DNA of 64,000 bases from contig NC_015636.1 of the NCBI RefSeq assembly GCF_000179575.2, positions 1,155,495 to 1,219,494 of the forward strand, given 5' to 3'. This document shows positions 20,886-41,982 of the stretch, piece by piece. The notes under the pieces were generated by a model. That model was not told where the DNA came from and searched no databases. It saw nothing but the letters and a program-made list of their open reading frames with translations. Source of the DNA: Methanothermococcus okinawensis IH1. GTDB lineage: Archaea > AGJL01 > Methanococci > Methanococcales > Methanococcaceae. The translations under genes and the position numbers were made by a program. How positions within the stretch are numbered: position 1 is the first letter of the stretch; each line of letters opens with the position of its first letter.

Positions 20886-20985
20886 ACTTCAAAAGATTGA
20901 TTTTTAGGTGTTATAAATAATTATATCGAATAATTTATATATAATTAAGGACATAAAAAGCACATGATATATAATTGGTGATTTC

Positions 20986-21484
20986 ATGGCTACAACCTAC
21001 GAATTAAAAATATATGGTAAAACTCAGCATGTGGGATTTAAGGACATAATTGAAAATTAGGGCATGCATAGGTGTTAATGGAGTAGTTTATAATTATAGG
21101 GATGGAACAGTTAGAATTTTGGCAAATTTTGATGATGAAAAAATAAAAGAAGCATTTAAAAACAATATTAAACTACTGGGAAAAAAAGATGAGTTAATAA
21201 ATATAGAAAAAATTGAAGAAAAAGAATTAAACGCTTTATTGAATTTCCTAGGGGAATAAATAGAATTTCGGCGGATGATTTAATTGAGTTGAACGAAAAC
21301 CAATGTTTTCGTAGCTCTCCGTTCGCTTCGCTCACTCCGATTAAATAAGAAGCTTGATGAAGGGGTTAAATATATTAAAATGATATTTGGAGTTTTAGAA
21401 GAAGTTAAAAAAGGTCAGGACGAAATAAAGGAAATCCAATTGAAAATGCTAACTATATTAGAAAAAATAGAAAAGAAACTTTAA
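20986..21484 (+). pseudogene. decayed acylphosphatase-like gene
   Basis: Starts normally after GGTGATTTC with [20 protein letters not shown], an acylphosphatase-like N-terminus, though the usual Arg after VGF is Lys. The frame then stops at TAG (21058); homology continues in the +1 frame ([20 protein letters not shown], the family's G-V-x-N-x-x-DG block) and stops at 21259, then shifts once more into [13 protein letters not shown], which is broken by a palindromic insertion (21278-21346). Beyond it a helical tail runs from [19 protein letters not shown] to LEKIEKKL and stops at 21484. So at least two frameshifts plus one insertion; it is almost certainly inactive unless recoded. Confidence 0.75.
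21278..21346. repeat. palindromic insertion element, copy A
   Basis: Nested inverted repeats: ATTTAAT/ATTAAAT (21278-21284/21340-21346), GAGT/ACTC (21286-21289/21334-21337), and an inner hairpin CGAAAAC-CAAT-GTTTTCG (21294-21311), followed by GTTCGCTTCGCTCAC. It separates two halves of an open frame that otherwise read together (…DLIELN and KKLDEG…), so it looks inserted. It resembles copies at 35911-35970 and 41805-41860 in architecture (two short hairpins, local GC rise, GCGA/TCGC words) rather than in sequence. Confidence 0.55.
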
Positions 21485-21572
21485 GATATTTAAGATATAA
21501 ATATAAATTTTTATAATAATGTTTAAAACTTACCGATGTATCATTTAAAATATAATAAAAATAGGTGAGCTC

Positions 21573-21833
21573 ATGGCAATAAATCCTTCGAAAATAAGAA
21601 CCTGCCCAACATTAAATGATATTTTATTAGTCGAGAATACTTTAAAGGAATATTCAATAATTGCAATTGACGAACTATCTAAAAAAACAAACATAAATAT
21701 TTCTATATTAAAAGAAATTCTTGATTATTTGGAGAATTCCAATAAAATCATAATATCAAAAAAAGGCATTTCTTGGATATACAACAATAATGAGAAACTA
21801 CAAAAGATAATTAATGAAGGGTTTGAATTATGA
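21573..21833 (+). CDS. small winged-helix protein, probable antitoxin
   Basis: An 86-residue protein that I read as a winged helix: VENTLKEYSIIAIDELSKKT (helices 1-2), NINISILKEILDYLENSNK (recognition helix region) and IIISKKGISWIY (wing). RBS AGGTGAGCTC precedes ATG. Its stop overlaps the start of the next gene by 4 bp (ATGA), and that gene is RelE-like, so the likely role is a DNA-binding antitoxin that represses the pair. I know no named family for it; a transcriptional regulator unrelated to toxin control is possible. Confidence 0.55.
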   Translation: MAINPSKIRTCPTLNDILLVENTLKEYSIIAIDELSKKTNINISILKEILDYLENSNKIIISKKGISWIYNNNEKLQKIINEGFEL

Positions 21834-22174
21834 AAAAAATTAGGGTAATTTTATCCCCTGATGCATTTGATGTTTATAATTATTTAAAAAATAATTTGAA
21901 TTATAAACAAAATAATTCTTTATTTAATGCTATAAACGATAAAGTTAAAATTCTCAAAAGTAATGTTCATTATGGAGATGCAATAAGTAAAAGACTAATT
22001 CCAAAAGAATATATTAATAATTACGGAATTTCTAATTTATTTAGAGTAGAATTGCCGCAGTTTTGGAGAATGCTTTATACTATTACCAATTATGGGATAA
22101 ATATTATCGTGGTTATTTTGGATATTTTAGACCATAAAAAATATAATAAAAAATTTGGATATAAAACTAAATAG
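21830..22174 (+). CDS. RelE/ParE-like toxin candidate
   Basis: A 114-residue basic protein. The second half has the RelE-fold pattern: GISNLFRVELPQFWRMLYTI, then INIIVVILDILDHKKYNKKFGY, matching the G-x-x-N-L-[FY]-R-h-x-[LI] core, the strand with RMLYTI and the closing D-H-x-x-Y of the superfamily. Members are mRNA interferases or gyrase poisons. Start overlaps the stop of the winged-helix gene, giving translational coupling. Catalytic residues cannot be assigned with confidence. It sits next to a pseudogene, a usual place for mobile toxin-antitoxin modules. Confidence 0.6.
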   Translation: MKKIRVILSPDAFDVYNYLKNNLNYKQNNSLFNAINDKVKILKSNVHYGDAISKRLIPKEYINNYGISNLFRVELPQFWRMLYTITNYGINIIVVILDILDHKKYNKKFGYKTK

Positions 22175-35620: not shown

Positions 35621-36764
35621 TTACGGTATTCCTCTCTTTATTAGTTCTTTACTACACGATTTAACCACTTCATAAAATGATAAACCATATTTATGGCTTA
35701 AATATTCTATGCAATTTGAAACTATTGCTAAAAATCTAATAAACCCTATATTACTATTTTTAGATGTTAAATAGTTCCCTTCAATTTTTAAAACTGATTT
35801 ATCCCTTTGATGCTTTTCTTCTATCATAGGTCTCTTGATATATTCCCCTATTATATTTTCTGCCTTCTTTTTATGGTCTATACATACCAAATACTTGGGT
35901 TCCTCCTGGTTTCGAAGCGAATCTGAAAGATTCGCTGACTTACAAAAACCCCTTGGGTTTTTGTTAAGTTTCATTAGCACTGCAACGATTTTAACCCTAC
36001 CTACATTAGGGATATTAACCACTTTATGATATAGTTTAACTTCTGTTTCGTTAATTGTCCTTAATTTAAACTTATTTTCTTCCAAATCCTTCTTAAATAG
36101 TTTTTCTATTTGGACTTTCTTACCAAAATACTCAACTATGATGTTTTTCTTAATTTTCCCAATGTAACATAGACCCAATTTCTTAGACTCCTTCATAACA
36201 TCCTTTGTAGTTATAAAAGCGTCTCCTATTACCGTCCTGATATCGGTGTTGGATAAGAACCCAAGAATATCTATAAATATATTTGTAGATTTTTGTTTAA
36301 AGGTTTTGTTGTAGTATAAATTGAGTATATCCCTTTTTATTATGATAAATACAGCAATTTATTTGTTCTTGATAGAGTTTTTTATGTTCTTCGATGTAAT
36401 TATATCTAATACCACATCCATAAACCTTTTCACTCCATCTCCTTATGAATGTTGAATCAATTATTGCAGTGAATTTAAACCTTTTATCATTCAAGATATC
36501 GGGAAGGCTTGCTAATTGGTTATATACGCAAATCTCATTTTTTGATAGTTTTTGAATGTTTTTGATGATGGTAGTTCTGTGGATTTTTGAAATACTCTCT
36601 GAAAATGCTTTAATGGTCTTTATTGGGGTTAGCACTCTAACCTGTGCAAACCTGGATAACTCATCTGAACAGTTAAATCCTAAACTATTTATAGAATTAG
36701 TGAGTACATTATTAAGTGTTTCTAACCTGTTATCACTAAACTTTTTTATTTGAGTATATTGCTT
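35621..36764 (-). pseudogene. DDE transposase, frameshifted and interrupted
   Basis: N-terminal part (36297-36764) reads KKFSDNRLETLNNVL, ELSRFAQVRVLTPIKT, an HTH-like RTTIIKNIQKLS and the first catalytic Asp in FTAIIDSTFIRRW; it ends prematurely at 36297. A one-base shift leads to QKSTNIFIDILGFLS, VIGDAFITTKD (second Asp) and the 191-residue C-terminal part to 35621, with RPMIEEKHQRDKS probably near the acidic third residue. An IS4-like DDE enzyme is likely. A palindromic element of about 57 bp is read in frame within the C-terminal part (residues KNPRGFCKSANLSDSLRN). No ATG start remains. Confidence 0.75.
35911..35970. repeat. palindromic insertion element, copy B (in-frame in transposase)
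   Basis: Two adjoining hairpins: AGCGAATC-TGAAA-GATTCGCT (35916-35936) and ACTTA+CAAAAACCC-CTT-GGGTTTTTG+TAAGT (35938-35969). On the minus strand it is translated in frame as about 19 residues between the strand VKIVAVLMKLN and EEPKYLVCIDHKK, which would otherwise join smoothly. This is the behaviour of Rickettsia-type palindromic elements. Confidence 0.55.
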
Positions 36765-41804: not shown

Positions 41805-41860
41805 CTTAGTCTTACGAGCTCAGCGAGTAAGTCGTATGAATTCACGAAGTGAATTCTGAG
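41805..41860. repeat. palindromic insertion element, copy C
   Basis: Two hairpins in 56 bases: CTTAC...GTAAG (41811-41815/41827-41831) enclosing a GAGCTC site, and a perfect GAATTCAC-GAA-GTGAATTC (41838-41856). CTTAG and CTGAG (41805-41809/41856-41860) close the unit. It stands in the otherwise AT-rich 480-bp gap between fmdB and moeA; the rest of the gap (41504-41982) has only T-rich tracts and the stem-loop at 41555. Confidence 0.5.
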
Positions 41861-41982
41861 ATTAAAACAAGATGGAAATAAATATAAAAAAAGGAATTAA
41901 TCAATTTAAGTTAAATGTTTATAAAACTAAATACATAGTTAAAAGACTATCTTTATAATTTTTTATTTAATTTTATTTTTAT

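Follow-up and report, generated by a model that had tools for sequence, protein, structure and literature searches.

The genome of Methanothermococcus okinawensis IH1 (1,677,455 bases in two contigs) contains an acylphosphatase-family pseudogene that is split by a short hairpin-forming segment. The question raised by this locus is what the segment is and how it came to lie there. The pseudogene occupies positions 20986-21484 (+ strand) of the window, the 64,000-nucleotide stretch analysed here, which is part of a contig of 1,662,525 bp. It was recognised by reading the open frames, by its homologues and by Pfam: the acylphosphatase-like reading, which ends in EKIEKKL, matches PF00708 (E 2e-12). 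In the original prediction an extra segment splits the frame, and the flanks read together without it. Indeed, at eight homologous loci, spread over three genomes and including two in the genome of the window (G000), the sequence crosses the site without the extra segment, and once the insert is removed the flanks join as in these homologues, with the junction after LIELN. Two of the eight empty places (L016 and L017) are themselves partly decayed. L016 (G000:C2:62744-62900) is a second acylphosphatase-family copy in the same genome, which has decayed separately and lacks the insert. Compared with the empty homologues, the net gain is 52 bp, which is not a multiple of three. Two or more lesions besides the insert affect the pseudogene: the first frame stops at an in-frame TAG (21058), and the frame shifts near 21230. 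The second frame reaches a TAA at 21257. The insert by itself is therefore not a sufficient explanation of the pseudogene. Being 52 bp long and frame-shifting, it would have either landed in an already dead gene or contributed to killing it. At 21573-22174 of the window, two small overlapping open reading frames (86 and 114 aa) resemble a toxin-antitoxin pair.

The segment, referred to as copy A, had been placed at 21278-21346. While the insertion was confirmed, these limits were not: the best-fitting placement is 21289-21340 (52 bp, TTGAAC...CTCCGA, + strand), with boundaries set by analogy with the copies in two other genes (BioF and GT2, see below), whose empty orthologues fix the ends. Copy A is a net insertion relative to the empty homologues and is matched by a covariance model with E 3e-17, copy A itself being among the 13 copies used to build that model. 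Its GC content is 0.45 versus about 0.2-0.3 in the surroundings, in agreement with the predicted GC rise. Hairpin 1 (21293-21312, + strand) has a perfect 8-bp stem, ACGAAAAC / GTTTTCGT, and the loop CAAT; it was identified by a stem search and by covariation over the copies, and its stem is one of four in the window with perfect 8-bp pairing and at least three G/C in the arm. It is followed on the same strand by the spacer TAGCTC (21312-21317), which reads TWRCTC in most of the family when the copies are aligned, and by the GC-rich tail TCCGTTCGCTTCGCTCACTCCGA (21318-21340). In many other copies a second hairpin stands in place of this tail. The double hairpin predicted for copy A was thus found in its first half, and the second half is a GC-rich tail with no clear second hairpin. 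The adjoining TTAAA on the target side (21341-21345, + strand) differs by one transition from the TTGAA at the left end of the element, which is also the sequence inferred for the empty site. A compact nested palindrome, also part of the prediction, was dropped, since the whole-segment fold was not better than that of shuffled sequences (z -0.5; 54 of 200 shuffles were equally good); the outer 20-nt arms of 21278-21346 are only 75% complementary.

Searches for further copies were carried out by several routes. A DNA similarity search of G000 with the whole insert returned the insert itself, paralogues of the flanks and weak short matches. It was uninformative because stem and tail vary, and a covariance model was needed. 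The exact 18-mer TTCGCTTCGCTCACTCCG has a single occurrence in G000; with at most two mismatches this core was found once each in G000, G026 and G030, three times in G002 and 14 times in G012. Most of these core-matched copies have in common TTRAAC, a hairpin with varying arms, a TWRCTC-like spacer and a GC-rich tail. According to the covariance model, the family is larger than 18-mer matching shows. At E 0.1, relatives of the element were detected in 20 of the 36 Methanococcales genomes, and no match was obtained in any of the seven genomes of genus g3. At E 0.001 there were 76 matches in G012, 13 in G016, 12 in G002, 8 in G008 and 2 in G000. The corresponding counts at E 0.1 (115, 30, 42, 34 and 12) are upper limits, as weak matches of 28-44 nt may be unrelated hairpins. 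A true second hairpin is frequent in the weaker matches, whose second halves differ. The genome-wide search thereby provided the many other copies that the idea of a dispersed family calls for. Sequence was read around the matches only, and a phylum-wide search covered the same 36 genomes. The range beyond the Methanococcales was assessed by the 18-mer only, which gave two single matches with 1-2 mismatches in 25 other archaeal genomes, with the rest of the element missing. Matches in a phage collection and in viral contigs consisted of core parts in other contexts, with no stem 1 as far as read, and an Oscillospiraceae MAG carried the same core within another hairpin; both were excluded from the family. 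Outside the family context, the core TTCGCTTCGCTCAC(TCCG) is also present in contigs of unrelated bacteria and viruses (L022 2430-2450; L077-L085; the phage matches).

The arms had been suspected to drift while pairing is kept, and this was confirmed over the copies. In the ten-pair stem of 13 distinct copies, 99.2% of the pairs are intact, and 25 changes affect both partners of a pair while none affects one side only; neither this covariation score nor this paired percentage was reached in any of 500 shuffles. The stems of 85 distinct copies comprise 793 pairs, of which 774 are Watson-Crick, 13 G-T and 6 mismatched. These 85 copies contain 51 distinct arm sequences, and the loop is TTC in 30 of them and its reverse complement GAA in 16. 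The near absence of G-T steps speaks for pairing being maintained at the DNA level. We infer that the arms are rewritten jointly and not by stepwise mutation.

Orthologous genes with and without a copy were compared in three sets. For BioF, a name (8-amino-7-oxononanoate synthase) that was given from sequence and that Pfam covers as class I/II aminotransferase, 27 of 30 orthologue loci are empty, including relatives 94% identical to the query. The site region measures 78 bp in 25 of these; the other two, which are divergent, have 84 and 93 bp. The gene is occupied at the same codon in G012 (+45 bp), G032 (+51 bp) and G029 (+57 bp). A radical-SAM gene is empty in 11 orthologues and occupied in G012 (+45), and a family-2 glycosyltransferase (GT2) of G000 carries +45 with ATTGAA on both flanks, its six orthologues being empty. 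As read from these alignments, the three orthologue sets prove the insertion of family copies. The BioF copies of G029 and G032 have nearly the same tail at the same codon, with stems that differ in sequence and length. This pair appears to be the best case for rewriting of a stem in place; alternatively, a favoured site may have received independent insertions. The G012 copy has a shorter tail, so that more than one insertion may have occurred there.

Further open genes holding the element encode porphobilinogen deaminase, a helicase-ERCC4 protein, a DEAD helicase, a group-1 glycosyltransferase and a carbamoyltransferase-like protein (named from sequence only). These in-frame copies outside the three orthologue sets were chosen by their open frame and are circular as evidence on frame. 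Copies of either orientation lie within the frames of intact enzymes. About 16 of the 85 copies lie in or across long open reading frames, versus 55% of random points at the same loci, which suggests that damaging insertions were removed. At L171 (G028:C1:1064378) the element stands in frame within a very long open reading frame resembling an intein-bearing protein. Among the IS605-like copies of G002, the same site is empty or occupied, which suggests recent movement. The near-end hairpin structure of these copies (CCTTCCGTAAGGG; L158, L159, L205, L206 and L207) contains 0, 1 or 2 hairpin units.

The left end of the element reads TTRA(A/G)C (ATTRAAC), and the base following CCG is A in 75 of 85 copies. 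Related copies adjoin ATTRAA-like sequence and many have ATTRAA at both sides, the assignment of end bases to element or target differing in certainty between sites. The target preference is loose: the IS605 site reads TAAGGG^AGGGG, the BioF site in G029 ATAAAT, and the radical-SAM site also deviates. A perfect target duplication was considered and rejected, being contradicted by the BioF loci L198 and L199. As to classical MITE traits, a terminal inverted repeat was not seen by eye in the alignment; ATTRAA on both sides of some copies could represent a duplication, but the same two BioF loci speak against it. In G012 the element also forms head-to-tail arrays with a period of 53 bp, for example at L033-L035 (G012:C1:1310901-1311030). 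Copies in this genome lie on both strands (44 minus, 29 plus), with no clear chromosomal pattern by eye. The in-frame copies in intact genes, the arrays and the adjoining ATTRAA-like target go beyond what had been predicted.

Two further double hairpins of the window, copies B and C, had been grouped with copy A. Copy B (35912-35967, - strand) is a diverged double hairpin that reads TTAAC-AAAACCC..GGGTTTTTG-TAAGTC-AGCGAATCT..AGATTCGCT-TCGA and lies in frame in an IS-like open reading frame, for which Pfam gave no match. Its kinship with copy A is supported by the common layout, with arms of its own. The covariance model gave similar scores to the copy B hairpin at seven more places in G000; six of these share their surrounding sequence, whereas the seventh (L087) is a composite of another kind. 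The IS-like element carrying copy B is present at several places in G000 (L088-L094). In G025 (L064), a homologous IS-like open reading frame bears a different double hairpin at the position of copy B. Copy C (41811-41864, - strand) is an intergenic double hairpin, CTCAGAATTCAC..GTGAATTC-ATACGA-CTTAC..GTAAG. It looks like a related subtype, similar to units in L066 and L205, with a kinship by form only.

Copy A is most likely a selfish mobile DNA element that is non-autonomous, measures about 42-58 bp and is part of a family dispersed in the Methanococcales. Its relatives are inserted and scattered, keep a paired but variable stem, lie in ATTRAA-like surroundings and are tolerated in frame in three gene sets. 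The interpretation as a hairpin family of mobile type is thereby supported. As to the mechanism, a putative trans-acting enzyme would recognise the hairpin in its DNA form, probably single-stranded or cruciform, and insertion would take place 5' of ATTRAA-like sites. Both arms would be rewritten together, via hairpin-templated repair or by exchange between copies. The element would be of no benefit to the cell, and copies breaking useful genes would be removed by selection. A more specific form of this explanation is the single-strand 'peel and paste' route of IS200/IS605, in which the element would be a miniature derivative mobilised in trans by TnpA (Y1). We regard this as possible, if tentative. 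On the other strand, the element is inserted 3' of TTTAAT and has TTCAAT as its own end. This is reminiscent of IS200/IS605, whose left end is flanked by the target and whose right terminus is similar. The geometry without a simple target duplication and the hairpins close to the ends are in line with this route, as is a similar double hairpin immediately upstream of TnpA in the IS605-like element of G002. However, a search for the Y1 transposase domain (PF01797) gave only fragments in G002 and G008 and nothing in G000, G012, G026 and G030, although the domain may have been present in the past. In addition, the IS200/IS605 mechanism involves a guide tetranucleotide 5' of the hairpin foot (PMC6006769), and here the hairpin abuts the element end, which leaves no space for it. 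More speculatively, the family could represent a new archaeal class of mobile hairpin, a proposal in which we place rather little confidence. Pairing, and not stem sequence, would be recognised, and a putative non-Y1 enzyme would move any unit whose ends are right. Rewriting of the stem as one piece would supply varied in-frame peptide insertions.

Spread could also need no dedicated enzyme and come about when ATTRAA-flanked copies recombine with short ATTRAA sites or convert them, or through template-switched repair, but this seems unlikely. It would fit the ATTRAA flanking many copies on both sides, the head-to-tail arrays, the mutually reverse-complementary loops TTC and GAA and the stem replaced at one BioF site (G029 versus G032), but a homology of six bases is very short for homologous exchange and the clean new insertions in unrelated genes indicate an enzyme. 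The structured unit and the lack of a clear target duplication would also agree with copying via RNA, that is retro-insertion of a short structured RNA as proposed for the Allomyces double-hairpin elements, a precedent cited in PMC2800124. This is very improbable, as the G-U intermediates expected from selection on RNA structure are nearly absent (13 of 793 pairs) and Rfam offers no match: no curated model matched window positions 20900-21600 up to E 1. The A-rich and T-rich arms of the stem-loop could also suggest a functional RNA, a terminator or a regulatory hairpin. We give this hardly any credence, given the position of copies in either orientation within frames of intact enzymes, the empty orthologous sites and the missing Rfam family.

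Rickettsia is the best-known source of in-frame palindromic inserts. The Rickettsia palindromic elements (RPE) are short repeats found between genes and also, in frame, within protein-coding genes that are unrelated to one another (PMC10969869). Like them, the present element has entered coding sequences in frame, at sites that are empty in orthologues (BioF, radical SAM, GT2). However, RPE are about 150 bp long, bacterial and encode conserved peptides, whereas the archaeal element has 42-58 bp, uses several frames and both strands and possesses 51 distinct stem arms, so that the peptide varies with frame and strand. We know of no sequence relation between the two. Yeast mitochondrial GC clusters, which merge, shuffle and can sit in a coding gene (PMC4478555), are likewise small mobile palindromes of raised GC content within an AT-rich background. 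Their GC-rich sequence is conserved and flanked by AG or ACT repeats, in contrast to the variable, AT-rich stem and the ATTRAA-like flank of the archaeal family. The double-hairpin elements (DHE) of Allomyces mitochondria are described, as cited in PMC2800124, as two adjoining hairpins that differ between close relatives and lack a flanking duplication. They belong to fungal mitochondria; in copy A a single hairpin is clear, and a second stem exists in some copies of the archaeal family only. With IS200/IS605 derivatives (PATE) and REP/RAYT the family shares hairpin units and, less certainly, an asymmetric target use that lacks a clear duplication. It differs from them in that a copy-rich genome is devoid of the Y1 domain and the hairpin stands directly at the end. 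The REP (RAYT) foot GTAG (or CGTC) 5' of the hairpin is missing; the motif here is TWRCTC, and the preceding base varies within stem 1. By the tests run, the family works like RPE, GC clusters and mitochondrial double-hairpin elements but does not appear to be a member of any of them. No published account of it was found in the literature searched, which left most subscription journals outside, and an earlier description may exist. A de novo survey of insertion sequences and MITEs in archaea (PMC3852290) contains no Methanococcus-type names in its main text.

The family is an archaeal counterpart of RPE with clean empty and occupied gene sets, one of which concerns a biosynthetic enzyme. With these sets it can be tested by what means such small elements move when no transposase is visible, how the two arms of a hairpin change jointly while pairing is kept, and what effect insertions of 15-19 residues have on working enzymes. 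As protein lengths are altered by the elements, gene annotation in the Methanococcales should reckon with them.
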